Shown here piece after piece: positions 2,981 through 35,818 of a DNA stretch of 39,739 bases (position 1 is its first letter; every line of letters begins with the position of its first letter). The position numbers and the translations under genes were made by a program. The stretch covers positions 1 to 39,739 of IMG/VR virus record IMGVR_UViG_3300030116_003716; one strand, given 5' to 3'. The notes below the pieces were generated by a model, which was not told where the DNA came from, ran no database searches, and worked only from the letters and a program-made list of their open reading frames with translations. The DNA is from a virus.

Positions 2981-3624
2981 TGACTCTTTCAGTCAATGAT
3001 TTTACAGCAGGGGATGTTATTACTGCTTCTGCGATGAATACTAACTTTGCGACCATTGAGGGCTATGTGAATAGTTCTCCTGGTTTGGCGCAGCTTACTG
3101 GCGCTACTTTTTCTGGTGCTGTGACGTTTAGCGCTGGTCTTACTTCTACTGGTGGTACTACGGCGTTAGGGACTACGAATATAACTGGTGAAGTGAATGT
3201 GGGGACAAGTGGTTCTGGCCATGATGTTTATTTTCATTCTGCTACAGCAAGTGATAATTTGCATTGGGATGCGTCTGATGAGAAATTGGTTATTACTGGT
3301 ACTGCTGGTCAAGATGCTTTGCATGTAGCTGCTGGAAATGCGACGTTTGCAGGCTTACTTACTGCTAACGGTGGTTTAACTCTTCAGGATGGTGACACGT
3401 TTACGTTTGATGGGGAGTCATTAACTGACTGTATTGACACAGGCGAGACATGGACTAGAACCAATAGTGCTATTGCGACTGTTGGAGCGATTATAGATCA
3501 ATTTTTACAGTATGACGTAGACGGTGGCACTGCCCAAGGAGCAACTTTATACATACAGGCTTCTGCGCCTTATTCTGATGGGGACGGAGCAGGAGTTAAG
3601 GGCGATATTTGGATTGATACATAA
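2980..3624 (+). CDS. Tail fibre / structural protein
   Basis: This encodes 214 aa, rich in Gly, Thr, Ser and Ala, with beta-helical fibre composition. The opening FTAGDVITASAMNTNF is common at the start of phage tail-fibre and tail-associated proteins. Around residues 73-95 there is a GHDVYFHSATASDNLHWD segment that recurs, diverged, in the collagen-like fibre gene at 4376. The C-terminal AGVKGDIWIDT resembles the end of trimeric fibre modules. It overlaps both neighbours by a single base (TAATG), so translation of the three tail genes is probably coupled. Confidence 0.65.
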   Translation: MTLSVNDFTAGDVITASAMNTNFATIEGYVNSSPGLAQLTGATFSGAVTFSAGLTSTGGTTALGTTNITGEVNVGTSGSGHDVYFHSATASDNLHWDASDEKLVITGTAGQDALHVAAGNATFAGLLTANGGLTLQDGDTFTFDGESLTDCIDTGETWTRTNSAIATVGAIIDQFLQYDVDGGTAQGATLYIQASAPYSDGDGAGVKGDIWIDT

Positions 3625-4376
3625 TGGTAGCGTTGAAATACTATAACGGTTCTGCATGGACTACTGTAGCTGACGGTACAGCTTTTAAGTATTACAGCGG
3701 TAGTGCTTGGACTAACCCGACTAAGGTTCAGTACTATGATGGCAGTAATTGGCAGACTGTGTGGAACAAGTCTGATCCTTTGACGCTTGCATTTACATGC
3801 AACGGATCACAAGGATGGCGCAATAACGCTTGGAGAACAGATAAAATAATTCGCTTTGGAGCGTATCTAAATTTCGGAGATAACTTAAGCGTTTTAGAAT
3901 TTAGCGCTGACTCTACTACGAGTGGGCATACAAGCACATCATTAGCTGAAGCTCTCGCTGTAAGACCTAACGTTACTAGCGCAACATTATATCTTTATAG
4001 AAAGTCAGGGTATGGCTCAGGAACCATTAGCGGTTCTACTAGCGAAACGTTACTTGTTGGACAGTTAAACAAAGCAAATGGAACGTCTATGTCTAGCTAT
4101 AACGCTGGATCGTTCGTGCAAACCACGAACATGCAGACTATCCCTGCTTCTGCGTTGCAGAGTTGGGGTTCTAACGCTGCTAAAACATTTACGTTACCTT
4201 CTTCTGGTTTAACTGATTTCATTACGCATGTATCAACTAAGCAAATGTGGATTTCTGAGAAATCAAGCGGTTGGATAGCTAGTGGTGGAGGCACAAGCTC
4301 TTCTGATATTTACAGTGGTTGCGATGCTTACGATGATTCTAACCCACCTGTATTAACTGTGACACTGGACTACTAA
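3624..4376 (+). CDS. Tail protein with YYxGSxW repeats
   Basis: This encodes 250 aa. The N-terminus has three short tandem units: [22 protein letters not shown] and [11 protein letters not shown]. The rest is Ser/Thr/Gly-rich and predicted beta; it contains a [11 protein letters not shown] strand and ends [10 protein letters not shown], like DNRLRE or carbohydrate-binding beta-sandwich domains. Position between two fibre genes and single-base overlaps on both sides make it a minor tail or receptor-binding component. The binding role is inference. Confidence 0.6.
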
Positions 4377-6658
4377 TGCCTAAAGACATTCAATACACCA
4401 AACTACTAGGACCACAAGTCGAAATAACAATGACTAACGGCCCTGACTACGAAGGAACATATGCTTCTGGCACAACATATGCTGCTGGCGACGTTGTAAC
4501 CTACAACGGTTCTTCGTATGTCGCTAGACAAGCGACGACAGGTAACACTCCTGGCGATACTGCTTATTGGCAGACGTTAGCTTCGCAAGGTTCATCTGGT
4601 GGTACAGGCCCAACAGGGCCAAGTGGACCTACAGGGCCAACAGGACCAAACGGCCCCACAGGGCCAACTGGCCCAACTGGTCCGACTGGACCTACAGGGC
4701 CAGGTGGTACAGGTCCGACTGGACCTACTGGACCTACTGGACCTACAGGTCCAAGTGGTCCCACTGGCCCATCAGGTGCTGATGGTAAGACGGTATTGAA
4801 TGGTTCTGGTGATCCTTCTGGACCTACTGGAGCTGATGGCGATTTTTATATTCAAACAAGCGACAATGAGATCTTTGGTCCCAAGTCGAGTGGTTCTTGG
4901 GGTTCAGGAACTTCTCTAGTTGGTCCCACTGGTCCCACAGGGCCGACAGGCCCGACTGGGCCGAACGGCCCCACAGGTCCGACTGGTCCCACAGGACCAA
5001 CTGGGCCTGGCGGTACTGGACCTACTGGCCCCACTGGGCCTACTGGACCTACTGGACCTACAGGTCCGACTGGCCCAACTGGGCCTACAGGCGCACAGAT
5101 TCTTAATGGTAGTGGTGACCCTTCTGGTCCCACAGGTTCTAACGGTGACTTTTATATAGATACTGGGGATAATGAAATCTTTGGACCTAAGTCAGGTTCT
5201 GGCTGGGGTTCTGGTACTTCGTTGGTAGGGCCGACTGGACCAAGCGGTCCGACTGGTCCTACAGGGCCGAGCGGACCTAGTGGTGGGACTGGTCCTACTG
5301 GGCCAACAGGCCCAACTGGACCTGATGGTCCTAATGGTCCTACTGGTCCTGCTGGCCCTCCTGGTCCGTCTGGTGGTACTGGTCCTTCTGGTCCAACTGG
5401 TCCTGCTGGACCAACTGGACCTACTGGGCCGACTGGTCCTTCTGGTACTCCTGCTGGTTCAGATCATCAGGTGCAATGGAACGACGATGGTAGCTTTGGC
5501 GCTGACGCTAATCTTACTTATGACGGTTCAACGTTAACTGCTAAGGCAGCGTTAACTGTAGGTCAAGATGATACTGGTCATGATGTTATTTTTTACGGTG
5601 CTACTGCTAGCGCTAAATTATTTTGGGATGAATCCGATGATATTCTCTATGCAGAGAATAGCCAAATAAAAATCAGAAAGGATTCAGGCAATGCACTGTT
5701 ACAACTGCGAAGCGCTCATGACACTGAATCCTCCACAGGCATGATTGAGTTTCTGAAGGAAGATGGATCTCTCGCTTCACCTGCGGCAGTCGATGACGAG
5801 GCAACTTTGGGTCGTTTGGACTTCTATGGCTACGACGGTGACAGTTATGCACTCGGTGCTCGGTTCCGAGTTATGGTTGATGGCACTCCTGGTGATGGCG
5901 ACATGCCAACAGAGATGCTTTTTCAAGTTAGTCCTGATGGTTCTGCAAGCCCTGTCACCGCTGTGACGATAAAGCCGACTGGAGAATCACGCTTCACAGC
6001 AGACAAAGACATCACAAACTTTGCTCCCAACACTACTTCAACACCCACTGGGATAGTTTCGTTGTACAACTCAGATGGCGCTGTTGACGATTTCACTTGT
6101 CTAGATTTCATAGGAAATGGAACTGATGCTGCTGCTCGCATAGGTATGAAGTACACAGGGTCAGGTTCGGAGCTTCACTTCGGAACTTCCAACTCTTATG
6201 GGAATGGAATCACTCATACTGGAATGAAGATTTCACCGACAGGTATTGTTTCTCCAGTGGCAGGGGCGTGGCAGTCGTGGACACCAACTCTGAACAATAT
6301 CACCATAGGTAATGGGGCGGTACTTGCTTATTACTGCCAATTCGGAGATGTGGTTCATTACATGTTTAGGTTGACTTTAGGTTCAACGACTTCTTTCAGT
6401 GGCAGTATTTATTTTTCGGCTCCAGTAGATCCAGATAACGGTATTCTTTATGCACCTGCTGGTCGTTCTTGGTTAAGGAATATGGGGAGTTCTATCTATA
6501 ACGGCCATCAGATGACTGTTGGTGGCAACATTTATATCTACCATGAAGATGAAACAGGTGGGTCTACAAGATCTCAAAACGTAAACGCTACTGGGCCTTT
6601 TACTTGGGGAAGCACAGACGTAATTTACGCTGCTGGTTCTTATGCTGTGGAGTTTTAG
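4376..6658 (+). CDS. Collagen-like tail fibre
   Basis: This encodes 760 aa. Residues about 25-65 ([20 protein letters not shown], then TPGDTAYWQ) resemble a small CBM5/12-type carbohydrate-binding domain. Residues about 75-358 are Gly-Pro-Thr/Ser triplets of collagen type. They are interrupted by two near-identical cassettes near residues 137-181 and 240-285, each with an [11 protein letters not shown] segment, a GDFYI strand and an EIFGPK motif. [19 protein letters not shown] segment then echoes the gene at 2980, and the C-terminal 150 residues look like a beta-rich receptor-binding tip. Collagen triplets in phage fibres form rigid trimeric rods. Host surface binding is the likely role. Confidence 0.8.
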
Positions 6659-7584: not shown

Positions 7585-9083
7585 TGGCCCATGAAGCAGG
7601 TCACGAGAAAAAACCAGACTGGGATGATGACAATTTAACTTTTGGAGCGGGCGGTGCCAAGGTAGAGGGACTTTTCAGGAGTATTCTACCTGGTGGTGGT
7701 GATGGCACTGGTGGTACAGACCTTGACCAGTTTGTAGGCGTAAATTTAGGTGGAGCTGAACGAAGCCCTGAAGCGGAACTTGCCCTCCAAAACGCAGCGA
7801 AAGAGCAGAACCAACAACAGCTCCGAAATGCAGGCATTACACATGCTTTCGATAGGGGTATGGGTGGTGCGTTTAATCCTGAGATAGGGGTTAGGAATAT
7901 GGGGGTCCAGCATGGCTTTACTCCTACAGCTTCGACAAACCCTTGGAACCCTGCTAAGAGCGCTACCGATCCGTTTGATTTAACCGCAGCTAACATTGCT
8001 GCTGGTATGACTCCTGAAGATCTTGAGTATTACCAAGGGATAGAGCAATTTGTTCAAGGGTTTAATCAAGACCCTTCGGCAATGAAACCATATGACACAG
8101 AAGGTGAATATGGTGGTAGCCAAACTGATCCTTTCCAGTATGGCGAATCTGCTTTAACTAACTTACAGAATCAACGTGCGGCGATGTACGCTGATTATTT
8201 TGCGAATCAAGAAGGTTTTGCTCAAGACAAGTATGATTCGATAACTTCTTATTTGAACGAACTTCAAATTGGCGCTGACGCACAGTACCAGAAAGACATG
8301 GCAGACATGTCGGCGCAGTACGATTCGATGCAGAATTCAAGAAATGAACGTTTCGCAGAAGCTTACGCTAGGGGCGGTGATCGTAGCGGTTTAGCTATGG
8401 ATACTTTGGCGAGTTTGGGAATTACTCCAGATGCTACTACGTTTGATTCTGTTACTGGCGAGACAGATAATATGTTGTTCTCTCAGCAGCAAAGCGGAGC
8501 TGACATGCTTAACACGATGCGGTTTATAAGTAATCAGATGCTTGATTTCGGTAAATCTGCTTCTTCTCGAAGTATTAGTGCAGGTTTGCAGCAATCTGAA
8601 ATGGCTTTGGCTCAAGAGATGGCTAATATCCAGTTGGCTAAAGATTCCTTTGCGATAAGCGAGATAGAAGCTGCGATAGCTCAAGAGAAAGCTACTGCCG
8701 AAGCGAACGCTGCTCTAGCAAGAGCTAGTGAAGCTGAACAGAAGATGAACGCTTACTTTATTACTGCTGGGCGTGTGTACGCTCCTGAAGCTACTGACGC
8801 TGAGTTGGTGGCTATGGGTAATACTGGGCTGTTAGATCCACTTGTTCAAGCTGCTATGCAACCAGGGGTTCCTGAACCTGTAACTATTCCGTGGGGTGCG
8901 ACTCCTGAAACAGGTTCTCCTATGACTCAAGAACAACTACAAATGATGGCGACGATGCACGCAATGACTAATCAGGGCCAAGCGCCGCAGTACTATCAAG
9001 ACCCAGTAACAGGTTTGACAGTTCCTGTGGAATCTCCTTCTGATTTGTTGAACGTCATACAAGCCCAGACCCAACAAAGTTAA
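7584..9083 (+). CDS. Internal virion protein (putative ejection protein)
   Basis: This encodes 499 aa. The N-terminal third is Gly-rich and disordered. Residues about 170-380 are alpha-helical, Gln/Ala/Met-rich and coiled-coil-like, and include a GDRSGLAMDTLASLG turn. The C-terminus is rich in Pro, Gln and Met. It is encoded between two other putative internal proteins and ends one base before the giant gene. Composition and order suggest a structural protein that leaves the head with the DNA. This is inference, since no catalytic motif is visible. Confidence 0.55.
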   Translation: MAHEAGHEKKPDWDDDNLTFGAGGAKVEGLFRSILPGGGDGTGGTDLDQFVGVNLGGAERSPEAELALQNAAKEQNQQQLRNAGITHAFDRGMGGAFNPEIGVRNMGVQHGFTPTASTNPWNPAKSATDPFDLTAANIAAGMTPEDLEYYQGIEQFVQGFNQDPSAMKPYDTEGEYGGSQTDPFQYGESALTNLQNQRAAMYADYFANQEGFAQDKYDSITSYLNELQIGADAQYQKDMADMSAQYDSMQNSRNERFAEAYARGGDRSGLAMDTLASLGITPDATTFDSVTGETDNMLFSQQQSGADMLNTMRFISNQMLDFGKSASSRSISAGLQQSEMALAQEMANIQLAKDSFAISEIEAAIAQEKATAEANAALARASEAEQKMNAYFITAGRVYAPEATDAELVAMGNTGLLDPLVQAAMQPGVPEPVTIPWGATPETGSPMTQEQLQMMATMHAMTNQGQAPQYYQDPVTGLTVPVESPSDLLNVIQAQTQQS

Positions 9084-9084
9084 C

Positions 9085-12000
9085 GTGTCGGAGAAAAGAT
9101 TCCAGCGCTTGGAGCAGGTCAAGGATGCTAGCCATCCTAAGTTCGGGCGCATAATGGAGTTGAAAGATGCTGGTGACCCTGAGATACTAGAAGCTCCACG
9201 AGCTGCTGCTGCGAGGTCTTTGTCTAGCAAGGACAAGCCAAAGCAACATAGGATTAAGACGAGGGAAGAAATACTTGCAGATATGGGGATTGCTCCTACT
9301 GCTCCTGTTGCTAAACCTATCCAATGGAAAATTGCACGCCCGATTGAACCGTATGTGTATACTCCACCTCCTCCTAAAAAGGGCGGCGGTGGATTCTTAG
9401 GTTTCTTGGGTGACGTAATTGATGTTATTGACACTCCACGTGCTGCCATAGTTTCCACCATCAAAGAAACAGGCGATTTGTTTCAGGGTGAAGGGTTTAG
9501 TGCTTCTGATTGGTGGAAGCAAACTAGTGACAATATGATGATGGGTGAAGTGCTACGTGATTGGGGTGTTGACCTTCCTGGTCCTTTGCATTTTGTGGTT
9601 GGTCTTGGCCTTGATATAGCTCTTGATCCATTGACGTATTTGGCTGCTGGTACTTTGTCTGCTAGGTTCGCTAATCCTAATAAGGTTGCTGATGCGTTGT
9701 CTTCTGCGTCTAAGACGTATAGGGCTGCTGGTAAGATTGATGAGGCAGATATGTTGTTGAAAGCTGCTGGCAATGTTACTTCAAAGCGCTCTGTTCTTTC
9801 TGCTGGAGATGAAGCTCTCAGTCATATAGGTATGGGTGTTGGTTTACGTATGACAGTGCCTGGAACTGGTCGTATTGGTCGTACCATTATTGAAAAGCCT
9901 TTAAGGGCTATCTCTAAGAAAGCTGGGGCCGCTCTTGATGCTAGGCGTGTGCGTCAGTTACCTGAAGCGAATCTTCCTGATCTTTTGAAAGGCCCAAATA
10001 ATCCTTGGGCCAAGCAAGGTAAAAGGTCTTATGATTTTTCTAAGCCTGGGAATCAGAAAAAGCTGGTGCAGAAGATTAATACGATACGTACAAATAAGTT
10101 GGCTCCTAGGACTGCTTTTACTGATCCTGCTAGACAAGCGATGAGAATGCCTGTTGAGTTGGTTAGGATACCTATTCCTGGAAATAAGGCATTTATTAAA
10201 CTTTCAGCAGGTCTTGTTGGGACTGCGTTTGCGGCTTCTGCCAGTACGAAGTTTGGTCGTTCGATGGGTAATTTGTTTGGGACTCAGGGTGAGTATAACA
10301 GAGCTATTCGTGAAATTGGTAAGGGGATGGCTAAGGGCGATCAGAATGCTTTGAACATGTATGATTATTTGCGTGTGGCTAAAGGTGCTGCTGATACGGC
10401 TAATGTTCGTGTTGGTACTTGGCAGCATTCTACTCTTGAGGAGCTTAGAGATGTTCATACTATGGCTGATAGTCTTGGTGTTAATTACGATGATTTGATG
10501 TGGCGTGCTGCTGAGGAACCTTGGCAGCTTGTAGATGAAGCTGGTAATTCTTTTTTTAATCCTCGTTTGGCAGATATTGGTTTAACTGAATCTGATGAAG
10601 TTATGGAGTTGCACGCTAGGGCTCAAAAGTTCTGGGAAAACGCTGGGCAACGCCTCCAAAAAGAGTTGGAGCCATTTGGTGTTCGTGTTGATCTCATGGA
10701 CTTTAGGGACGAGTTTTATGTTCCTCGTTTCCTTGATGAGGTGGAAGCTGAAGGGGTAGTTAAGGGTGTTCAGGCAGATGGTAGCAGGGTAACTATAAAT
10801 ACCGCTATTGGGAAGTCGAATGCTTCTGGTCTTGTAGGCAACGCTTTTTTAAGATCACGCCAGTACGTTACTCCTAAAACCATGAGAAATAACTTTCGAG
10901 CAGACAAGTCAGATGTTGCTGGTCGAATGGGTATTGGACCTAATAACGCTGACATGATTACTGATGAAATGGTTCATAAGGCTGCTGTCGCTCAAGGGCT
11001 TGATGGGGCAAAGAAAGGCACTTTCAAAGTTGGCATGTACACTCCTGAGCAGCTTGATGCGTTATTTGACGATTTGTTACGTAGCCCAACTGGTGTTTCG
11101 TTTGAATATGCGAATGGTGGTAAAGTGTCTAACAGCTACCTTGGAAGGCAACTGGATGATGTTGAAAGAGCTGGCGGCGTTAGAAGCCAAATGGAAAGAA
11201 TAGGTGCAGAAGAACTAGGGGCAGACTACAAGAAAATATACAGTGAAGACTTTAATCAGGCTATGGAACGTTATGTTAATCAAGCTTCCCATAGGTTGCG
11301 TGAAAATATGTATATGGCGGCTTTGGATAACGCTGGTATAACAATCAGGGTCCAGGATCTTGACGGAGCAACAATGTGGTGGGGTCAAGAAAGTAGAAGG
11401 ATTAGTTCTCAATTAAATGGTTTCCTTAATGACATTGGTAAGGGTTTAGATGGCGCTGATGCTAGGTTGGCTCGTGAAGAACCTTTACTGGATCAAGCTG
11501 CTAAACGCAAAACTGCGTATGAAGAAGCTACTGGCGGTGAAGGCATTGATGCCGCAAGCGCACGAAAATTTGACCGAGCAAACGAAGAGGTAACTGAAGC
11601 TACTCGTCAAATTGCGGAAATTAAAAATATCATAGCTGCTATCAATGACCCGAACATTAAGAATTTGCCCGAAGGTATTAGCGTTGACGTTTTTGAGTTG
11701 CTTCGACCACCTACGAACAATCCGAGTAGGGGATCAAAGATATTCAATAAAGCCCTTGTAGATCATGCTGGCTATTTAGATGACGCTGAACAAGCTGTTC
11801 TAGTCGTTAACGATATGGCTGAAACAATTAATGATATTACTCAGATGAGAATTAGCATTCAGCAAACGTTAGACGCTATGACTGACGTTAGCCCTGCAAC
11901 AAAGCAACAATTTAAGAACTTGCTTGATGAGTTGGACGAAGCTATTGAATCAGGGACTAGAGGGGTTCAAGAATTGAACTTGAACTATATGGATAACATT

Positions 12001-14448
12001 TTGAAAAACGATCCTGGTGTAACCTTTCTCAACCATTATGATGAGTTGGGCGAAATTGTTACAAAGGATACGACGTATAAGATAACGAGGAATGGTCGTA
12101 AACTTTCTTCTAAAACGTTTACGACACCTGTTGAAAGGGAGTTGCGTAACTTTGTGAAACGTATGGCTACTGCCGCTAAGAACGCTAAGGATCCTGTCGT
12201 TAAGGCCAACATACTTGCAGATGCTAAACGTGTTGAACAGTGGCTTGACCGTGTGTCTTCTGCTAAGAAGTTATCTTCTCAGTTGGGTGAGCAGCGTATT
12301 TATTCTGGTGTGCTTAATTTAATTAAATCTGTTGATGAAGGTGTTGTTAAGATTGATGAGATAGCTGGAATTAATGTTATCCAAAATCAGATCGACGAAG
12401 TAGATCAGTTAATATCGAGTAGCTCTGGTATTAATAACCTTGATCCTCAGTCGCAAGCTTTAAGAGATACGTTAGAGTCTGAGCTGCGGTATTTGGAGGA
12501 TGTTAACGAAGCTAATAAAGCTGCTCTTATCGATATACAGACTGAGTGGGAGCAGAAAGCTGCGTATTGGAATGACTTGTATCAAAATAGGAAAATAACT
12601 GTTGAGGAGCTCACGGCAAGGATAGAAGCTTTGAATGATGCTAGACAGGTTATGTTGGATCGGGTCCAGTTGGAGATAATTCCAAGAGGGCAGGTCACAG
12701 GGACTCTTTCAGATAGGTTAGCTAATTTAGGTCGTGTAGATTTGGAATATGCGGATGTGGGCCGTCAGGGAGAGATACCTGTTGGTGCTAAATTTGCTGC
12801 TGGGGACGCTCAACGCAAAGCGATAAGTATGATTCGTACCGCTAGGGGCCAGCACCAGCTTTTTGATGCGTATGGCGGCGCTTTGAACGAGTACATGTTG
12901 AAGCATACTTCTATGGAGTTTAAGAATGGGACGACAGGAGTTCGACGCACAATAGGGCCAGGTGGTAAGCAAACCTATGGACGAGCTGAGAGGGCTTTTG
13001 CTGGCAGGGCTGTTGTTGGTGAATTTACTGATGATGAGATGGAATTGTTATTGAATGGGATGGCCACTCTTGGGAAAATGCAGGATCCGCAGCAGCTAGG
13101 TGAATTTTGGAAGAAGTACGATAAGTTTCTTAATTGGTGGAAGGCTCAGGCTGTTACTAGCCCTGGTTTCTTTATGCGAAACCAGATGGGTGGAATGTGG
13201 ATAAATAATCAGTTGAACGATGTCCCTATGCACACTCATGCACGTGTTCGACAAATTAGGAAACTTGCGGTGCAAGAAGGAGACGGTAATGCTCTTGTAG
13301 GTTTGGAGCGGTTGATTGCCAAAGGAAAGCATGTTGATTTGGGCGGCTTGTATGGCAATTTAATTTCTGGCGGTACAGGTATGCGAACTGTAAGTATCGA
13401 CGAGTTGCGGACTTTCAAGAGTTGGTTTGAAACTGGGATGGCTGGTCAAGGTCAGGTGACGATGGAATTACCTACAGCGTTTGCTGGGGTAAGAGGTGGC
13501 GCTTGGAAACAAGGGTCTTTGAAACCTTGGGACGTTGATTGGAAGCCTATGAACTGGGTTCGTGCTAGAAACGCTGATTCAGAGTTTATGCTTCGTGGTG
13601 CTTTAGCGCACCATAATATGATGACAGGCGCTACCGTTGAGGACGCATGGAACTCCGTTAGGAAGTTTCATTTTGATTACGGCGATTTAAGCATGGGTGA
13701 ACGTCGAATAAAGAAAGTTATCCCTTTCTATGTCTGGCAGAGAAATATCCTTCCTGTGCTTGTGGAGTCTATAGGTAAGAATCCTAAAGCTTGGGGAAGG
13801 TTGCAGCAGGTTAAGGGCGAGCTGGAATTGTATTCAGACCAAGAGGGGATGGTCCCACATTGGTTTGGTGAGAACATGGGGATAAGGTTACCTTTTACTA
13901 GGGGTGGCAATCGAGTTTATGTGATGCCTGATCTTCCTTTCCGTGATTTGAATAAAATTACGAAAGACATGGATAGCGCTGTAGATGTTAAAGGTTTGAC
14001 TGAGGGAGTGTTTAGGCTTGGTATGGAATCTGCTCTACCTCCTGTAAAGCTTCCAATAGAGCTCATGATGGGTAAGCAAGTGTTTCAAGGTATTCCTTTT
14101 AGTGGAAGATACCAGCAGGCTCCTTTCTGGGCGCAAATTCCTGGAGTTAGCCAAGCTTTGATTACGACAGGTTTAGCTAAACGAGCGAAAAATGGTCGTT
14201 TGGTTATGAGAGATAACCATATTTATAGCTTCGACCAGTGGTCACCGTTGATAGGGAGAATGCGAAGGTTAGTACCTAACGAAAGATCTAAGGAAGAAGC
14301 CGCCTTTACTACGTGGATGAATACTATGCTGGGTACTGGCATTAGGGTTAATACTCCTAGGATGAAATATAGCGAGTTTATACGTCGCCAAAAAGAATTT
14401 CAACAAACTTGGAGAGACAACATAGATATTGAAATGAGGGTCAGATGA
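9085..14448 (+). CDS. Giant internal virion / DNA ejection protein
   Basis: This encodes 1,787 aa from a GTG start and is by far the largest gene. The N-terminus has a Pro-rich stretch (YTPPPPKKGGGGFLGFLGD), followed by long helical, charged regions. Near residues 1352-1375 the segment TSPGFFMRNQMGGMW, and near 1525-1555 KFHFDYGDLSMGERRIKKV followed by IPFYVWQRN, match motifs I recall from very large internal proteins of environmental short-tailed phages. A role in crossing the host envelope, as for T7 gp16, is inferred. No lytic transglycosylase motif was spotted; wall lysis may instead come from the amidase gene that overlaps its stop by 4 bases. Confidence 0.65.
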   Translation: MSEKRFQRLEQVKDASHPKFGRIMELKDAGDPEILEAPRAAAARSLSSKDKPKQHRIKTREEILADMGIAPTAPVAKPIQWKIARPIEPYVYTPPPPKKGGGGFLGFLGDVIDVIDTPRAAIVSTIKETGDLFQGEGFSASDWWKQTSDNMMMGEVLRDWGVDLPGPLHFVVGLGLDIALDPLTYLAAGTLSARFANPNKVADALSSASKTYRAAGKIDEADMLLKAAGNVTSKRSVLSAGDEALSHIGMGVGLRMTVPGTGRIGRTIIEKPLRAISKKAGAALDARRVRQLPEANLPDLLKGPNNPWAKQGKRSYDFSKPGNQKKLVQKINTIRTNKLAPRTAFTDPARQAMRMPVELVRIPIPGNKAFIKLSAGLVGTAFAASASTKFGRSMGNLFGTQGEYNRAIREIGKGMAKGDQNALNMYDYLRVAKGAADTANVRVGTWQHSTLEELRDVHTMADSLGVNYDDLMWRAAEEPWQLVDEAGNSFFNPRLADIGLTESDEVMELHARAQKFWENAGQRLQKELEPFGVRVDLMDFRDEFYVPRFLDEVEAEGVVKGVQADGSRVTINTAIGKSNASGLVGNAFLRSRQYVTPKTMRNNFRADKSDVAGRMGIGPNNADMITDEMVHKAAVAQGLDGAKKGTFKVGMYTPEQLDALFDDLLRSPTGVSFEYANGGKVSNSYLGRQLDDVERAGGVRSQMERIGAEELGADYKKIYSEDFNQAMERYVNQASHRLRENMYMAALDNAGITIRVQDLDGATMWWGQESRRISSQLNGFLNDIGKGLDGADARLAREEPLLDQAAKRKTAYEEATGGEGIDAASARKFDRANEEVTEATRQIAEIKNIIAAINDPNIKNLPEGISVDVFELLRPPTNNPSRGSKIFNKALVDHAGYLDDAEQAVLVVNDMAETINDITQMRISIQQTLDAMTDVSPATKQQFKNLLDELDEAIESGTRGVQELNLNYMDNILKNDPGVTFLNHYDELGEIVTKDTTYKITRNGRKLSSKTFTTPVERELRNFVKRMATAAKNAKDPVVKANILADAKRVEQWLDRVSSAKKLSSQLGEQRIYSGVLNLIKSVDEGVVKIDEIAGINVIQNQIDEVDQLISSSSGINNLDPQSQALRDTLESELRYLEDVNEANKAALIDIQTEWEQKAAYWNDLYQNRKITVEELTARIEALNDARQVMLDRVQLEIIPRGQVTGTLSDRLANLGRVDLEYADVGRQGEIPVGAKFAAGDAQRKAISMIRTARGQHQLFDAYGGALNEYMLKHTSMEFKNGTTGVRRTIGPGGKQTYGRAERAFAGRAVVGEFTDDEMELLLNGMATLGKMQDPQQLGEFWKKYDKFLNWWKAQAVTSPGFFMRNQMGGMWINNQLNDVPMHTHARVRQIRKLAVQEGDGNALVGLERLIAKGKHVDLGGLYGNLISGGTGMRTVSIDELRTFKSWFETGMAGQGQVTMELPTAFAGVRGGAWKQGSLKPWDVDWKPMNWVRARNADSEFMLRGALAHHNMMTGATVEDAWNSVRKFHFDYGDLSMGERRIKKVIPFYVWQRNILPVLVESIGKNPKAWGRLQQVKGELELYSDQEGMVPHWFGENMGIRLPFTRGGNRVYVMPDLPFRDLNKITKDMDSAVDVKGLTEGVFRLGMESALPPVKLPIELMMGKQVFQGIPFSGRYQQAPFWAQIPGVSQALITTGLAKRAKNGRLVMRDNHIYSFDQWSPLIGRMRRLVPNERSKEEAAFTTWMNTMLGTGIRVNTPRMKYSEFIRRQKEFQQTWRDNIDIEMRVR

Positions 14449-15212
14449 GTAAAACAATTATTAGTAGAAAAGGTTGGGGTTCAAGAGGGCCACGAAAACC
14501 TTTTAGCTGGTTAAATAAGCGGCGTGTGCAAGGCATTGCTTTGCATCATTCTGGTGTGAAGAATGGTCCGAAGGGTGTGGCTGCTGTTAAGGCGTTTGAG
14601 CGTCATCATATGGATGCTAATGGTTGGAATGCGATAGCTTACAACTGGTTGGTTGATGAAGATGGCGTTATTTATGAGGGGCGTGGCGCTGGCGTTATTT
14701 CGGCTGCGACACGACCATATAACAGTAGGACTGAATCTATTTGTTATACAGGGGATGGCGATAAGGCTGTTCCTGAGAAGTCGTTGGAGTCTATTCGTTG
14801 GCTTATTGGCGATATTCAGGAGCGTTACGGTCAGAAGTTGTGGGTTAAGGGCCATCGTGATCTTGCATCTACGTCTTGTCCTGGTACTTGGTTGTATAAC
14901 TGGTTGCAGAGCGGTATGGGGATTACTCGTATGCCTGAACCTCAAGAGTGGGATGGTATTAAAGCCCAAATAGAGCGACTTGGAGCTATTGTGGCTAGGA
15001 AGCCACTGTCTAGGCGGCGTAGAAGCCGTGGAGAGGCTGTGAGGGTCGCTCAGGAGCGTCTGAAGGCAATAGGGATAGACCCTGGCCCTGTAGATGGCGT
15101 GTTTGGAGGTCGTACACGTATAGCGGTATTGAATTTCCAACGGAAATATAGAGACGTGTTGTCAGTCGATGGAGTCATTGGCCGCAACACTTGGAAAGTG
15201 TTATTCTCGTAG
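14445..15212 (+). CDS. N-acetylmuramoyl-L-alanine amidase endolysin (PGRP-type)
   Basis: This encodes 255 aa. Residues about 25-155 form a zinc amidase of the Amidase_2/PGRP type. LHHSG supplies His34, GHRD supplies His137 and STSCPG supplies Cys145; the YNWLVDEDGVIYEGRG core strand pair lies between them. A linker rich in Arg follows. Residues about 192-255 form a peptidoglycan-binding domain 1 (DPGPVDGVFGGRT ... FQRKY ... VDGVIGRNTW). It cleaves the bond between muramic acid and the stem peptide. The gene overlaps the giant virion gene by ATGA, so it may act as a virion lysin, an endolysin or both. Confidence 0.92.
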   Translation: MSKTIISRKGWGSRGPRKPFSWLNKRRVQGIALHHSGVKNGPKGVAAVKAFERHHMDANGWNAIAYNWLVDEDGVIYEGRGAGVISAATRPYNSRTESICYTGDGDKAVPEKSLESIRWLIGDIQERYGQKLWVKGHRDLASTSCPGTWLYNWLQSGMGITRMPEPQEWDGIKAQIERLGAIVARKPLSRRRRSRGEAVRVAQERLKAIGIDPGPVDGVFGGRTRIAVLNFQRKYRDVLSVDGVIGRNTWKVLFS

Positions 15213-15437: not shown

Positions 15438-16292
15438 ATGCCTAAGAAAAAATCAGCACCGTACAAGAAACCTAGCGCAAAGAGGCCTAAACCGCCTGTT
15501 AGAACAATGCCTATTCGAGGCAACGTAGATCCTAGAACAGGAAGGCCGTCTAAGCCTAGGCCTAAACCTCAACCTATAGGGCCAAGGAAACCTGGCACAA
15601 AGAAACCTAAGAAACCTCTGCCAAGGAATCCTCGCACAAAGCCTCGTGGTACTGCTGATCCTAGAACGGCTAGTCCAACTCGTAGAGGTGGTACAGTAGC
15701 AGCTCGGCCCAAGAAAGGTACTAAACCTAAAGTAGTGAAAGGGAAGATGGGTAAGGTAGCAGCTAAACGTAGCGGTGGAACAGCAGCAGCTAGGCCTAAA
15801 CGAGGTAAAGCTAATCCAGCTACAGCTAGTCCAACTCGTAGAGGTGGAACGGCAGCTAAGAGAGGCACTACCCCTAAAAAAGGTCCAGCAAAAGGAAGTT
15901 CCGCTAAGCGAGGTAAGGCAGATCCAAGAACGGCTAGCCCCTCAAAGAGAGGTGGAACTGTAGCAGCTAGGCCTAAGAGAGGTACAGCAGATCCCAGAAC
16001 AGCTAGTCCCACAAGAAGAGGTGGAACAGTAGCAAGACGGAAAAACTACCCATCAAGAGGTAACGTAGATCCTAGAACAGGAACTCCTAAGCCACGACCT
16101 AAACCTCGTATTGAGCATACTCAGAGGAAGCCTAAACCTAAAGCACCTAGAAGAGCGCCTTCACGAAATGTGGTGCATGGATCTTATGGTCCTGCTGGGC
16201 TTGAGTCTTGGCGAAAAGGTTTGGATCAGGGGCTGAAAAAAGCTGCTAGGTCCAAACAGCAAGAGCACAAGTTCAAGAACTATAGGCCGTAA
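15438..16292 (+). CDS. Hyper-basic repeat protein, protamine/histone-tail-like
   Basis: This encodes 284 aa made mostly of Arg, Lys, Pro, Gly, Thr and Ala, with no Cys. Four to five imperfect units of about 20-27 residues share the pattern ADPRTASPTRRGGTVAARP. Flanking RGNVDPRTG segments occur at both ends (near residues 30 and 205). The predicted pI is extremely high. The C-terminal 40 residues (VHGSYGPAGLESWRKGLDQG) look like a separate short folded or binding segment. The likely role is electrostatic binding, for example to DNA or to an acidic cell-wall polymer. The neighbours are lysis genes, and a TAATG overlap links it to the holin. Confidence 0.65.
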   Translation: MPKKKSAPYKKPSAKRPKPPVRTMPIRGNVDPRTGRPSKPRPKPQPIGPRKPGTKKPKKPLPRNPRTKPRGTADPRTASPTRRGGTVAARPKKGTKPKVVKGKMGKVAAKRSGGTAAARPKRGKANPATASPTRRGGTAAKRGTTPKKGPAKGSSAKRGKADPRTASPSKRGGTVAARPKRGTADPRTASPTRRGGTVARRKNYPSRGNVDPRTGTPKPRPKPRIEHTQRKPKPKAPRRAPSRNVVHGSYGPAGLESWRKGLDQGLKKAARSKQQEHKFKNYRP

Positions 16293-16477
16293 TGACAGAG
16301 TTAGCTAAATTCAGTTTAGCCAACTGGCTTGAACGCACCTTATGGACAGCGGCTCAATCTTTCCTAGCCATATTCGTAATAACTGATCTATCTACCTTGA
16401 CGGCAGCAGCTACTGCTGGTGGAGCAGCGCTGCTATCTGCTGTTAAAACTTTAGCTCAAGAACGACTTAAATCGTAG
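16292..16477 (+). CDS. Holin-like small membrane protein
   Basis: This encodes 61 aa. A polar start (LANWLERTLWTAAQ) leads into one hydrophobic helix (SFLAIFVITDLSTLTAAA), then a GGAALLSAVKTLAQERLKS tail. This layout resembles the short actinophage holins related to the r1t family. It is two genes downstream of the amidase and coupled to the preceding gene by TAATG. Holins make the membrane pores that time lysis. Confidence 0.7.
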   Translation: MTELAKFSLANWLERTLWTAAQSFLAIFVITDLSTLTAAATAGGAALLSAVKTLAQERLKS

Positions 16478-21593: not shown

Positions 21594-21869
21594 TCAACCA
21601 TAATTTTTTCTTTCCCTTCTGACTCTTGTATAGCCATAGTGCGGCTCTAGGACAATTCCTTTCAAACGCCGCTGGGCCTCAATTTCCTTGCTATTTAGAC
21701 CTCCCCACACCCCAAAAAATATGTGATTATTGACTGCGTAATCCAAGCATTCTGCTTTCTTGTCACATTTCCTACATATTGTTTTGGCGTGGTATTGCCC
21801 TCGCCTGGTCCTTTCATTGAAGAAGAGCTCTGTCTTCCCCTTGCAAGGAACGTTTGATGTATCAAACAT
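21594..21869 (-). CDS. whiB: WhiB-family Fe-S transcription factor
   Basis: This encodes 91 aa if begun at ATG 21869, which overlaps the upstream gene by 8 bases; a longer start at 21935 would add 22 residues inside that gene. Cys9, Cys32, Cys35 and Cys41 (PCKG ... CRKCDKKAEC) bind a 4Fe-4S cluster. FFGVWGGLN (51-59) is the family turn, followed by a basic tail (RVRRERKN). WhiB proteins bind the host sigma-A C-terminal domain and are known from actinobacteria and their phages such as mycobacteriophage TM4, where WhiB blocks septation. This marks the host as an actinobacterium. Confidence 0.93.
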   Translation of the reverse strand: MFDTSNVPCKGKTELFFNERTRRGQYHAKTICRKCDKKAECLDYAVNNHIFFGVWGGLNSKEIEAQRRLKGIVLEPHYGYTRVRRERKNYG

Positions 21870-22239
21870 CTTCGCAATAGAATTTAGGGGTGAACTGTGA
21901 TAGTCGTTCAGACTCTGCTTCCTTGTACATGTCATGAGCTCGCTGCCTAGTTACACCTAGCACTTTCGCTGCACTAGCAATACCGCCGTGGCCATTCTCA
22001 GTTGCATATGTGTAAAGAGATTGCCGCTTAAAGTATGAAGCTATCTTCATCCAGCGTTCGAGCCGCTTATACCAAGCATCAAACTGTTTCATCCTAAAGA
22101 CAGGTTGTCTACCATCGTACTGGCAGGCATCAATGAAATCCTCGTCAGTCCAATGTGCCGAAGTTTCATCTATACCTAGGATGCTACTCACCTCCTGGAA
22201 TAGGCCTCTATGTGATTTGTATTCTGGTTCCAAACTCAT
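21862..22239 (-). CDS. HTH-containing hypothetical protein
   Basis: This encodes 125 aa. Residues about 83-110 (GHGGIASAAKVLGVTRQRAHDMYKE) read as a helix-turn-helix of Fis/Xre-like spacing. The N-terminal region is Trp/Asp-rich and helical. Its start codon overlaps the previous stop (TAATG) behind GGAGATG. It may regulate or assist early transcription together with the neighbouring WhiB; the target is unknown. Confidence 0.65.
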   Translation of the reverse strand: MSLEPEYKSHRGLFQEVSSILGIDETSAHWTDEDFIDACQYDGRQPVFRMKQFDAWYKRLERWMKIASYFKRQSLYTYATENGHGGIASAAKVLGVTRQRAHDMYKEAESERLSQFTPKFYCEDV

Positions 22240-31751: not shown

Positions 31752-33236
31752 GTGTCTAGAGTTTTTAAGGCTCTTGGTCGGGGCTTGCTTGCTTCTTTGC
31801 TTGTTATTGTTTGGTTTGCGCCGCCTGCGGCTGCGGAAACGGTGTGTGAGCTCACGGATGAGGGTTGGGATTGCAACATTGTTGTTGAGACGTTTAACCA
31901 GGGTCCGCAGTTTACGTTTACTTTAACGGAGCAGACTGAGGTTACTGTAACAACGTATACGAGCCTTACTTGCCAGCAGCACGGAGAGGAAAGTGCAAGC
32001 GCTGATCCGTATATTTACATTTATGATGATGATGGAACGTTGTTGTATCAGGATGATGATTCAGCTCCGCACAATAATGGAACAAACTTCTGTTGGGATT
32101 CGCATATACAAGAGACGTTAGAAGCTGGGACGTATGTTCTTAGGGCTGATGTGTATGACGAGGATACTGTTGGAACGTATTCTATGGATATATCTGGTGG
32201 TGAGTGGTCTGTTCCATTACCAGAGCCGACTGCTACTCCTAACCCGACACCTACCCCAGAACCTACTCCTGAGCCTGAGCCAACTCCAGATCCTACTCCT
32301 ACGAGTACACCCGAACCTACACCGTCGCCTACACCCGAACCTACACCTGTACCTACTCTTCAACCTGATCCCACTCCTGTAGAGGTTCCTGAAGCAACCC
32401 CAGAAGAACCAGAGCTACCAGAAGTCCCAGAATTACCAGAGGAACAGCCCACACCAGAAGAATTGCCACCAGTAGAGGTATTTGAACCCCCAGTAGAAGA
32501 AGAGTGGCAACCACCACCGTTGATACTAGAGTTAGAGGAAGAAGAAGAATACCCATATGATGATGGTATCATATTTGATGATATAGGTTGGGAGGAATTT
32601 GATTTTGACGAAGAACTCTTTGTTTTAGAGGAATTTGAGGAGTTTGATGAGGGACAAGAAGAGCTATTAGTAGAGGAAGAAATTTTTGATTTTGACGAGG
32701 AATTGGTGGATGAACCTATACCAGAAGAAGATGAGGCAGAAACGGAAGAAGAAGTTGCTTTTGTTGATGAGGGAGAACAAGAGGAACCTTTCGTACTCGA
32801 AGCAGATGTGGGATTAGATGAGCAAGATTTTGAAGATTTGGAGGTGGAAGATTTAGATGATGAAATTATTGCTGAAATACTACAAGAGCAAGATGCTGCT
32901 GAGGAATTTTTTCAAGAAGTCATAGAAGACAATCCTGATTTTTTTGAGGAAAGCAGCGCAGAAGAATTAGAAGAGGTTTTTGAGGCAGCTCCTGAGCTGT
33001 TTAATGAAGCGCCTGATGAGGTGAAGGAAGAATTTGAGGAGGAAGTGAATATATTTGCTGGGGGATTTGAGGATTACCAGGCTGAGGATAGCACTATTAC
33101 TGTGCAGGAACGGCGTGTTGTTGTGACTGCTTCTACTGTTAGTGCTGTTGCTGCGGCTAGGCCAACTGTTCGTGTTGCGCCTTCTCCGTCTGTTGGTGGT
33201 CCATCTGTTCCTCAAGGGGGTAGAAGAAGACGATGA
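31752..33236 (+). CDS. Secreted hyper-acidic protein with PPC-like domain
   Basis: This encodes 494 aa from a GTG start. Residues 1-28 are a clear signal peptide ([15 protein letters not shown], cut after Ala). Residues about 29-150 resemble a PPC/jelly-roll domain ([32 protein letters not shown]) with several Cys. Residues 155-215 are Thr-Pro-rich repeats ([19 protein letters not shown]), as in cell-wall linkers. Residues 215-445 are dominated by Glu and Asp. The end is basic (GGRRRR). A Sec-exported protein is unusual in a structural block. Host origin and a cell-surface role are likely; the function is unknown. Confidence 0.7.
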
Positions 33237-33406
33237 AATTTTGGAAAAAAGTATTTTTTGAAACCAGTGCATTAAGCTGGACAATCGGTGGAACTGGAAT
33301 TGTTTTGATAACTCTTTCAGGAGAAACTAGAGAAATGGGAATTTGGATTTCTGTTGCTAGTTTTGTCTTTCATATGATTGGTGTTTTGTTAGACAAGGAG
33401 TCATAA
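33233..33406 (+). CDS. Small membrane protein (57 aa)
   Basis: This encodes a 57-aa protein. It begins in an ATGA overlap with the acidic secreted gene and ends in a TAATG overlap with the next. Two hydrophobic segments ([15 protein letters not shown] and [18 protein letters not shown]) are separated by a charged turn (GETRE). A holin, antiholin or envelope-anchoring partner is plausible. Confidence 0.65.
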
Positions 33407-33666
33407 TGACAGATAATTTAAGCGTATTTTTTAATACTTGTTTGCGTATCCTGAGTGTGTTTGGCATTCAGTGTATGGCGATTATTGGGGGAGCGAGTAT
33501 GATTGGGGATATACCTGTGTACAAGGCTGCGATACTTAGCGGTGTTGCTGCTGTGGCTCAGGTATTGCAGAAATTAGCTATTGCTTTTGCAGATGATGGG
33601 AAATTGACGCAAGCTGAGTTAGACGCAGCGTTTGCTAATGTTTCTAGCGGATCGGAGGACCGTTAA
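33406..33666 (+). CDS. Holin-like / membrane protein with EF-hand-like tail
   Basis: This encodes 86 aa. Two hydrophobic stretches (FGIQCMAIIGGASMIGD and AAILSGVAAVAQVLQKLAIA) are followed by DDGKLTQAELDAAF, which looks like half an EF-hand. This form of small membrane protein is common beside terminase genes in aquatic phages and is often called a holin. With the gene at 16292 there are two holin candidates. Its end overlaps the oxygenase gene on the other strand by 23 bases. Confidence 0.6.
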   Translation: MTDNLSVFFNTCLRILSVFGIQCMAIIGGASMIGDIPVYKAAILSGVAAVAQVLQKLAIAFADDGKLTQAELDAAFANVSSGSEDR

Positions 33667-34264
33667 CCCACATTACTGCTGATTTTCTGATTCCTTCAGT
33701 GACAGGTGTTATCCTATGATGTATGAAACTTGGAAAAATAACGGCAGATCCTTTGGGCGCTCGTTCAATGAACGTGTGGTGTTGGTTATGGAACAGGAGC
33801 TCTAGTGTTCCACCTTCGTAATCTTCTGGGGAGCTTAGATTCACGGTCACTGATAACTTCCGCACTAACCCTGCTAGCAATGGGTTTGTTGTTTGGTTTA
33901 GTGGCATTGGGTCTGTGGCTGTTCCGACCAGATGTTTTGCGGCGTATCGGTCTTGGTGGCCGTCAGTGTGCCAGTTATACTCGTCGCCTTCTTCGTAAAC
34001 CGTGTACTGTACGGCTTCTGGGCGAACCAGGTCTAGTACCCATCCAGCGTCAACATTTGCGGAGAAGGCAAGATCTTCGACCATTTGGAGAGCGCCGTGG
34101 TCGTGTATCCAGCTTATTTGTGAAGAACGTTTTGATGGATCTTCACCGAAGTGAAAGCCGTCTTTAGCGTGGGCCTCGAACGATTCCTCGCCTTTGTCTT
34201 TCAAATAATCGCATTCGCTTTCCGTAAATGCGTTAGGGATGTACCAGTAGTGGTTAGTAAGCAT
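33644..34264 (-). CDS. 2-oxoglutarate/Fe(II)-dependent oxygenase
   Basis: This encodes 206 aa. YNWHTDGH gives the iron ligands His99 and Asp101. FIHHRITPVTEGIRKSAVMW gives the distal His (183) and the Arg (193) that binds 2-oxoglutarate. The fold is the prolyl-hydroxylase/PiuC-like double-stranded helix (VQYTVYEEGDEYNWH; VNLSSPEDYEGGTLEL). The substrate is unknown; protein or nucleic-acid hydroxylation are both known in the superfamily. It is alone on the leftward strand inside the rightward block, tail-to-tail with the holin-like gene, and shares the bases of its start codon with the terminase start. Confidence 0.88.
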   Translation of the reverse strand: MLTNHYWYIPNAFTESECDYLKDKGEESFEAHAKDGFHFGEDPSKRSSQISWIHDHGALQMVEDLAFSANVDAGWVLDLVRPEAVQYTVYEEGDEYNWHTDGHQDRYAAKHLVGTATDPMPLNQTTNPLLAGLVRKLSVTVNLSSPEDYEGGTLELLFHNQHHTFIERAPKGSAVIFPSFIHHRITPVTEGIRKSAVMWVNGPPIR

Positions 34265-35150
34265 GGCTTATAGCTTATCAGAGTTGCGGCAGGAAGCCGA
34301 GTGGAGAAAGTGCAAAAAAGATGAATCTTATTTTTTGCGTAATTACTGGCATATAGCGCATCCTGCACATGGGCGTATTTTGTTTGATTTACGCAAAGCG
34401 CAATCAACAGCGTTAGAGCATTGGGAAGAACATAGGTATTCATTAACGTTAAAAGCTCGGCAGATTGGGTGGTCTACACTTGTAGCAGCCCACCAATTTT
34501 GGTTAGCGTTTTTTCATTCAGATCAGAACATTATTGATTTGTCTAGGACTGAACGTGAAGCGGTGTTATTGCTGCGTAAGACTAAATATGGGTTTAAGCA
34601 TTTACCTGAGTGGATGACTGAACGTGGGCCTAAATCGATAATGGAACATCAACAAAGAATGGGGTTTGACAATGGGTCACAAATTACATCAATGCCATCA
34701 GCTTCTGACCCAGCTCGTGGCGAATCAGCATCGCTTATTGTCGTGGATGAATGGGCTTTTCTCCCTAATCCTGAAGAAGCTTGGGCTTCTATCGAGCCTG
34801 TTGCTGATATTGGTGGTCGCATTATTGGTCTTTCCACTGCGAATGGTAGTGGGAATTTCTATCATCAGCTTTGGGTTGGTGCTACTGCTGGCGCAAATAA
34901 GTTTGCGCCTATGTTTTTCCCGTGGTCAGCGACTGAAGATAGAGGTGAAGCGTGGTACCAGGAAAAAATAGAAAGCATGCTGCCTTGGCAGCTAGCGCAA
35001 GAATACCCAACTACTCCTGAGGAAGCGTTTGTGAAGTCAGGTAACCCTGTGTTTGATTTGGATATTTTGCAAGAAATGGATAGGCGCACGACACGTGGAG
35101 AAATGGGGTATATGTGGCGGCAAGGAAACGCTGTGGAGTTTAGGCAATGA
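34263..35150 (+). CDS. terL: Terminase large subunit, ATPase part
   Basis: This encodes 295 aa. TLKARQIGWST (62-72) is the variant Walker A of terminases, SLIVVDEWAF (157-166) is Walker B with the catalytic Glu, and IIGLSTANGSGNFYH fits the coupling motif. The protein stops just where the nuclease domain should begin, and that domain is encoded by the next gene in another frame. Its ATG overlaps the start codon of the divergent oxygenase gene, and no strong ribosome site is visible. It powers DNA packaging at the portal. Confidence 0.88.
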   Translation: MAYSLSELRQEAEWRKCKKDESYFLRNYWHIAHPAHGRILFDLRKAQSTALEHWEEHRYSLTLKARQIGWSTLVAAHQFWLAFFHSDQNIIDLSRTEREAVLLLRKTKYGFKHLPEWMTERGPKSIMEHQQRMGFDNGSQITSMPSASDPARGESASLIVVDEWAFLPNPEEAWASIEPVADIGGRIIGLSTANGSGNFYHQLWVGATAGANKFAPMFFPWSATEDRGEAWYQEKIESMLPWQLAQEYPTTPEEAFVKSGNPVFDLDILQEMDRRTTRGEMGYMWRQGNAVEFRQ

Positions 35151-35818
35151 GTTTGGAAGTTTGGGAAACCCCTGACCCGATGAGCGCTTACGTTATGGGA
35201 GTGGACACAGCGGAAGGTTTAGGGCATGGAGACTACTCTTGTATCCAGGTTATTTCTGTTGGTACTGGGGAGCAGGTAGCTATTTGGCATGGCCATATTG
35301 CGCCTGATTTATTAGCTGAAGAAGTCCATGCTCTAGGATTGTGGTATCGAGATGCCTTGTGTTGTGTAGAATCCAACAATCATGGGCTTACGACTATTAC
35401 TGAGTTGCGGCATTTGGGGTATCCTAACTTGTTTAGGCGTAGACAACTTAATAATGTAAATAATAAAATAGGCCAAGAGTACGGTTGGAAAACTACACGA
35501 ACGTCTAAGCCGTTAATGATCGACGATTTAAGTTCTGCACTGCGTAATTGGGAGTTGCAGATTAATGATAAGCACACAGTTGCTGAGTTGCGTACATTTA
35601 CTAGAAACGAGAGGGGCTCTATGTCAGGATCTCCTTATGATGACCGAGTGATGGCTCTTGCTTTAGCTAACCAGATGAGGAAATTTGCTTATGAACCAGA
35701 ATATGCACCGCAAGTGGACGATTATTGGACTGTTGATTGGTTTGCTCGTTTGGGTGGTGATACGCCGCAAGATAATCCGCTTCAAATAGGCTTGCATAAC
35801 ATTCGTGGGACACTGTAG
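35147..35818 (+). CDS. Terminase large subunit, nuclease part
   Basis: This encodes 223 aa. VMGVDTAEGLGHGDYS (Asp20), CCVESNNHG (Glu75) and SPYDDRVMALALA (Asp165/166) are the three acidic motifs of the RNase H-like terminase nuclease. It begins in an ATGA overlap with the ATPase gene, in a different frame. GGAG and AGG precede its ATG, so it looks like a genuine separate gene. The nuclease cuts concatemers to start and end packaging. Its last codons contain TGGGACAC element copy A. Confidence 0.88.
   Translation: MSLEVWETPDPMSAYVMGVDTAEGLGHGDYSCIQVISVGTGEQVAIWHGHIAPDLLAEEVHALGLWYRDALCCVESNNHGLTTITELRHLGYPNLFRRRQLNNVNNKIGQEYGWKTTRTSKPLMIDDLSSALRNWELQINDKHTVAELRTFTRNERGSMSGSPYDDRVMALALANQMRKFAYEPEYAPQVDDYWTVDWFARLGGDTPQDNPLQIGLHNIRGTL

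Follow-up and report, generated by a model that had tools for sequence, protein, structure and literature searches.

An unnamed gene pair of uncultured phages encodes an exported modular protein and its small membrane partner, with a possible role in lysis

The window analysed here is a viral contig of 39,739 bases whose gene content includes an SU10-like portal and adaptor as well as terminase, scaffold and capsid genes. A WhiB gene on the minus strand (21594-21935) points to an actinobacterial host, and an integrase search of the window gave no match. An open reading frame (ORF) on the plus strand encodes an exported modular protein, for which we use the working name EXP, and is followed by genes for two small membrane proteins, TM57 and TM86. 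The features considered below are:

31752..33236, plus strand: EXP, exported modular protein of 494 aa
31752..31835, plus strand: signal peptide, residues 1-28, with conserved WFAP..AxA (direct reading; AlphaFold2 helix 2-22; motif kept in relatives)
31836..32216, plus strand: PPC / DVUA0089-like beta-sandwich, residues 29-155; its core (65-155) represents allele A, which phage lineages exchange
32217..32411, plus strand: Pro/Thr-rich linker, residues 156-220
32412..32831, plus strand: disordered Glu/Asp-rich stretch, residues 221-360
32832..33101, plus strand: conserved helical juxtamembrane domain, residues 361-450
33102..33158, plus strand: short hydrophobic helix, residues 451-469, probable C-terminal membrane anchor
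33159..33233, plus strand: basic tail, residues 470-494, with RRRR end
33233..33406, plus strand: TM57, two-helix membrane protein of 57 aa and obligate partner of EXP, with which it shares an ATGA overlap; phrog_29041 (unknown function)
33406..33666, plus strand: TM86, r1t-holin-like membrane protein of 86 aa, phrog_26427
14445..15212, plus strand: endolysin with Amidase_2 and PG_binding_1, which in this phage lies apart from EXP
16292..16477, plus strand: r1t-type holin candidate of 61 aa, which aligns with the r1t holins found in relatives, at 41% with that of L076

The EXP gene begins with GTG downstream of a GGGGGG Shine-Dalgarno-like run, and its GC content equals that of the window (45.6% and 45.7%). 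None of 500 shuffles of the gene reached its ORF length (longest shuffled ORF 275) and homologues are kept across many viral contigs, from which we conclude that the ORF is real. The exported layout proposed in an earlier, sequence-only reading of the locus, with a signal peptide, a PPC-like beta domain, a Pro/Thr linker and a Glu/Asp-rich stretch, was confirmed. Pro and Thr account for 65% of residues 156-220; residues 221-450 contain 43.5% Asp+Glu and 0.4% Lys+Arg, and the whole protein has a net charge of -126 and a pI of 4.05. That reading had described over 200 residues dominated by Glu/Asp; about 90 of them (361-450) make up a predicted folded, conserved domain. Its basic tail is likewise net basic (eight Lys/Arg against one Asp/Glu in residues 451-494, with a terminal RRRR) but begins with the hydrophobic helix.

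Signal-peptide and topology calls were based on hydropathy and AlphaFold. The signal peptide has three Lys/Arg residues, a hydrophobic core and a cleavage site between PPAAA and ETV. In an AlphaFold2 model built with 29 relatives, residues 31-153 form a confident beta-sandwich (pLDDT about 90) and are followed by disorder at about 190-354; helices make up a domain at 370-431, and residues 451-469 form a further helix. Foldseek groups the sandwich with PPC, subtilase C-terminal and carbohydrate-binding folds. The Pfam PPC family (PF04151) scores 24.6 bits, just below its gathering cut-off of 25.9, and the NCBIfam DVUA0089/FDP family NF038127 scores 49.9 bits against a cut-off of 29, covering residues 49-143 only. 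The exported N-terminal part contains four cysteines, which are conserved in marine relatives. For the juxtamembrane domain, Pfam matches to Glycos_trans_3N and GatB_YqeY and weak Foldseek matches to phosphorylases (best E above 2) were dismissed, being helix-bundle look-alikes.

Helix 451-469 contains 14-15 hydrophobic residues, with KD15 values of 1.5-2.1 and KD19 values of 1.0-1.6 in the window and relatives. KD19 is 1.05 in the window and 1.3-1.6 in the relatives measured; for a membrane span these values are weak and the helix is short, and because of its shortness anchoring could depend on TM57. In proteins in which EXP and TM57 are fused, the Lys/Arg-rich segment KRKFSPWGFIKKF precedes the TM57 helices and should be cytoplasmic according to the positive-inside rule, which implies that the hydrophobic helix should cross the membrane. 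As modelled, EXP is an exported, probably membrane-anchored surface protein. Its C-terminus was also considered as a sorting signal; we ranked this reading second because the fused forms continue into TM57 after the hydrophobic stretch and because neither inspection of the EXP sequence nor the TIGR01167 test revealed an LPXTG motif.

Two membrane helices are predicted in TM57, with an N-in/C-in topology as the likely arrangement, and its LVLITLSG turn is strongly conserved. In a first set of 94 EXP loci, TM57 was encoded directly downstream in 87, mostly with a junction of -4 or -1 bp (overlap), and was fused to EXP in the other 7. The reverse test, with TM57 alone as query, found it at no fewer than 519 viral loci; among the 77 examined, EXP lay directly upstream in 75, and the remaining two end at a contig edge. 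With lineages defined at 70% identity of the EXP membrane-proximal domain, TM57 stands beside EXP in all 31.

That membrane-proximal domain occurs at about 170 viral loci; an N-terminal EXP query matched 24 viral loci and a C-terminal query 80. The constant part of the family is the C-terminal domain followed by the basic end. The N-terminal domain varies and is PPC in many relatives and elsewhere PA14, fibronectin III, jelly-roll, SUEL-type lectin or others; outer-domain matches among 51 EXP proteins were to PA14 (8), fn3 (6), PPC (2) and SUEL lectin (1). Signal peptides are present in relatives whose N-terminal domains are unrelated. In many loci these peptides share an unusual motif, P-V/A-A-x-L-A-W-F-A/S-P, despite the unrelated domains behind them. 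Marine relatives have an acidic linker, whereas in many others it is neutral and rich in Thr; hyper-acidity is therefore a trait of one branch.

All EXP relatives are metagenomic. Full-length EXP had no match among 50,697 phage records or in plasmids, and PHROGs holds no family for it. The sole phage record with the EXP-TM57 pair is the metagenome-assembled DSL-LC01, in which the two are fused and annotated as 'hypothetical protein' (PMC10611076); our literature searches found no earlier description of the pair. Judged from sequence, EXP-TM57 is an unnamed, widespread gene pair in uncultured phages of aquatic actinobacteria.

Different phages have exchanged the outer domain. Compared with the close relative L017, TM57 and the flanks of the PPC core are 86-98% identical, whereas residues 65-155 reach only 56%; compared with L001, from another phage lineage, the core reaches 86% and the flanks 49-69%. 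Conversely, L031 and L032, of the L001 lineage, carry the L017-type core. This pattern indicates that the PPC core undergoes intragenic allele exchange, as in recognition proteins. A collagen-like tail fibre with CBM_5_12 is encoded at 4376-6658 on the plus strand of the window; its C-terminal half is foreign to the window's own clade and matches the fibres of L010 and L024 (53% over 114 aa to L010, an allele-A phage of another lineage). Co-variation of fibre and EXP allele amounts to one suggestive case, among fibres that are mosaic anyway.

Eleven loci have LPXTG proteins within the EXP cassette, as separate genes. In L124 and L127, such an exported protein lies between TM57 and TM86, and its C-terminal end consists of LPKTG followed by a hydrophobic stretch and basic residues; the N-domain of this protein matches the EXP of L095 at 51% over 290 residues. 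Neighbouring proteins score 22.3 bits in L124 and 17.7 bits in L119 against TIGR01167 (cut-off 15.9). Because LPXTG proteins carry them, EXP-type N-domains appear destined for the cell surface. The LPXTG proteins in the cassettes of L075, L111, L119-L122, L159, L170 and L174 have Big_1-like domains and a His-rich, HDHSSHDHG-type stretch before the sorting signal, and L091 encodes an unanchored relative of them (8732-9964).

TM86 is the only lysis-type gene adjoining EXP-TM57 in the window. Its match to the r1t-holin profile in hhalign has a probability of 96.5% (E 9.4e-10), and neither TM86 nor its L088 copy gave a direct Pfam match to PF16945 above the cut-off; the r1t holin of L076 matches PF16945 at 3.3e-5. 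Cassette HMMs were built from identified genes, with members verified by Pfam and PHROGs. Across the 31 lineages, whose contigs are often incomplete, these HMMs, several of them run on the loci from which they had been built, placed TM86 beside EXP in 23, an endolysin in 21 and any lysis gene in 24. The last count is a lower bound because the HMMs are narrow; in L148, which entered the count as lacking lysis genes, a VanY-type endolysin is encoded about 3.4 kb downstream. The endolysins and PF16945 holins that were identified run in the same direction as EXP. Gene order is endolysin, r1t holin, EXP, TM57, TM86 in L009 and L023; EXP, TM57, TM86, r1t holin, endolysin in L047, L057 and L087; and endolysin, EXP/TM57 fusion, TM86 in L093 and L096. 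L047 (6301-6981) and L057 (3262-3870) also encode, immediately 5' of EXP, an exported protein that weakly matches the lysozyme-like SLT_3. In the clade to which the window belongs, EXP-TM57-TM86 separates the small terminase gene from the large one and the endolysin is 16.5 kb from EXP. In several freshwater lineages EXP-TM57 adjoins tail-fibre-like genes and an endolysin is absent within 4 kb. Between the endolysin and the r1t holin candidate, the window encodes an extremely basic 284-aa protein with imperfect repeats (RGTADPRTASPTRRGGTVAARPK; 15438-16292, plus strand), which had no Pfam or PHROG match; this polycation shares a phage with the polyanionic EXP.

That the gene pair displays a recognition domain on the cell surface is well supported. 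The earlier reading is borne out in part: EXP is exported, and its display on the surface of the infected cell is very likely, given the signal peptides in front of unrelated N-domains and the LPXTG version of the same N-domain type. Beyond display, we tentatively prefer the reading that EXP and TM57 form an envelope-spanning lysis accessory, LysZ- or spanin-like in layout and not in family, because the constant, conserved part would sit at the membrane, tied to TM57, with lysis genes as its usual neighbours. In this working model, EXP would be a late, Sec-exported type-I membrane protein that forms one working unit with TM57. Its beta-sandwich, of a glycan- or envelope-binding type, would sit outside the cell, the disordered Pro/Thr- and Glu/Asp-rich linker would traverse the wall, and the juxtamembrane domain and short hydrophobic helix would hold the protein at the membrane with TM57, leaving the basic tail in the cytoplasm. 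EXP would thereby join the outer glycan layer to the membrane and, once the holins (TM86 and the r1t type) and the endolysin have acted, may help to disrupt the loosened envelope so that progeny can exit. The terminase position in the window's clade, the fibre-side freshwater loci and the weak membrane helix speak against a lysis role.

Among described systems, LysZ of the corynebacteriophages CL31 and Cog is close in concept. It is described as a 177-aa protein with one TMD and an N-in/C-out topology, whose exported part acts in lysis outside the membrane of a Gram-positive actinobacterium and is proposed, in a spanin-like manner, to engage lipid-anchored glycans (PMC13056207). By description, EXP shares with LysZ the phage-coded exported part outside such a membrane and the spanin-like idea, and differs in its 494 residues, cleavable-type signal peptide, N-out/C-in orientation, C-terminal hydrophobic helix, long linker and obligate second protein. 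The same source describes the LysF1a/LysF1b holin-like pairs of actinobacteriophages, two small membrane proteins of lysis cassettes (PMC13056207). LysF1a has two TMDs in an N-in/C-in topology, which by description resembles that predicted for TM57, whereas a large exported partner is not described there. Unimolecular spanins such as T1 gp11 (PMC6139136) resemble EXP in their N-terminal export signal, beta-rich outer domain and lysis cassette, and their C-terminal membrane segment has a possible counterpart in helix 451-469 of EXP. The u-spanin exported domain is, by criterion, free of cysteine (PMC6139136), whereas EXP has four cysteines in its exported part and, like its relatives, no lipobox Cys at the cleavage site; it therefore lacks defining u-spanin features. 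EXP also differs in its host, which has no Gram-negative outer membrane, and in its extra partner TM57. LPXTG sortase-anchored proteins share the signal peptide, outer domain, T/P-rich linker, hydrophobic segment and basic tail with EXP, which does not have their LPXTG motif.

The main rival explanation, which we consider somewhat doubtful, is receptor masking or superinfection exclusion: EXP held by TM57 would coat the infected cell and its debris and cover or mimic the receptor used by the phage, which would keep sister phages and released progeny from re-adsorbing. A variable outer domain on a constant anchor and the position beside tail-fibre genes in some lineages would fit this, as would the window fibre's C-terminal match to allele-A phages of another lineage, a single event. 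It also accounts better than a lysis accessory does for the LPXTG version and for the swapped PPC core, in which the window shares 86% with L001 and 56% with L017; the wall-anchored form in L124 and L127 is unable to bridge wall and membrane and so speaks for simple display at the surface over a lysis tether. Masking alone, however, leaves the strict need for TM57 and the strong juxtamembrane conservation unexplained, and the late-type gene order would afford late protection only. Receptor-blocking proteins are likewise made by the phage and placed on the host surface; Llp of T5 is a small lipoprotein that stands alone, without linker, partner or lysis-gene linkage. We regard as unlikely a lysis-timing sensor, T4 RI-like in logic, in which EXP would bind an outside cue and, via TM57, restrain or trigger the neighbouring holin. 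Its receptor-like combination of a constant membrane module with a variable ectodomain, the usual placement of holin-like TM86 directly next and the existence of EXP-TM57 fusions favour such a sensor, but the pairing with the holin-like gene (23/31 lineages) is looser than that with TM57 (31/31), and we know of no antiholin with an EXP-like layout.

The sequence-only reading had itself suggested a gene of host origin that alters the cell surface, blocks superinfection or binds cations, with a C-terminal layout that may match host secreted proteins; the corresponding rival is a captured host gene whose product renders the surface acidic or serves to bind cations. The N-domain does belong to a cellular family (DVUA0089/NF038127), the only such match in EXP, and the PT- and Thr-rich linkers resemble those of secreted proteins. 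Two profile scans that covered 84,980 genomes of bacteria and archaea, run with strict patterns, found no C-terminal relatives, which leaves the proposed C-terminal match unsupported and limits any sequence support for host capture to, at most, the N-domain. The replacement of the acidic stretch by neutral Thr-rich linkers in relatives argues against cation binding and, like the constant phage partner TM57, makes the host-capture explanation very unlikely. We give still less credence to a virion structural protein, fibre or decoration, whose export is only apparent: EXP lies within the packaging/structural block here and beside fibre genes elsewhere, but the signal peptide is kept with unrelated N-domains, an LPXTG variant exists and the partner is a membrane protein.

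Little is settled about how phages complete the lysis of Gram-positive bacteria once holin and endolysin are accounted for, and LysZ is a very recent first case. EXP-TM57, a unit without annotated function that most likely comes from phages of abundant aquatic actinobacteria, is a concrete candidate for this step. In its broadest form, which we advance as a speculative possibility, the lysis reading would make the two proteins a lysis system for Gram-positive hosts, in which a head that grips glycans can be exchanged while the membrane engine stays constant; it would be the counterpart of spanins for actinobacterial envelopes and be present in hundreds of uncultured aquatic phages. If receptor masking were true, the pair would be a very widespread surface-coating device of phages with exchangeable recognition domains. 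Either way, it is recognisable in viromes and testable in laboratory strains.

Several observations concern the genes that follow the cassette in the window. A 2OG-Fe(II) oxygenase gene on the minus strand (33644-34264), kept in the window's clade, overlaps the end of TM86 and touches the terminase gene. The large terminase (34263-35818, plus strand) is split into ORFs at 34263-35150 and 35147-35818 with a 4-base overlap, which is no sequencing error since L014, L017 and L019 are split too. In L025, an extra frame at the split point (about 2620-3450) looks, by eye, PAPS-reductase/ATP-pyrophosphatase-like (LSLGAGVQSSALLLLA), and the spacing at the split in L021, L026 and L035 resembles that of L025 with its extra frame.
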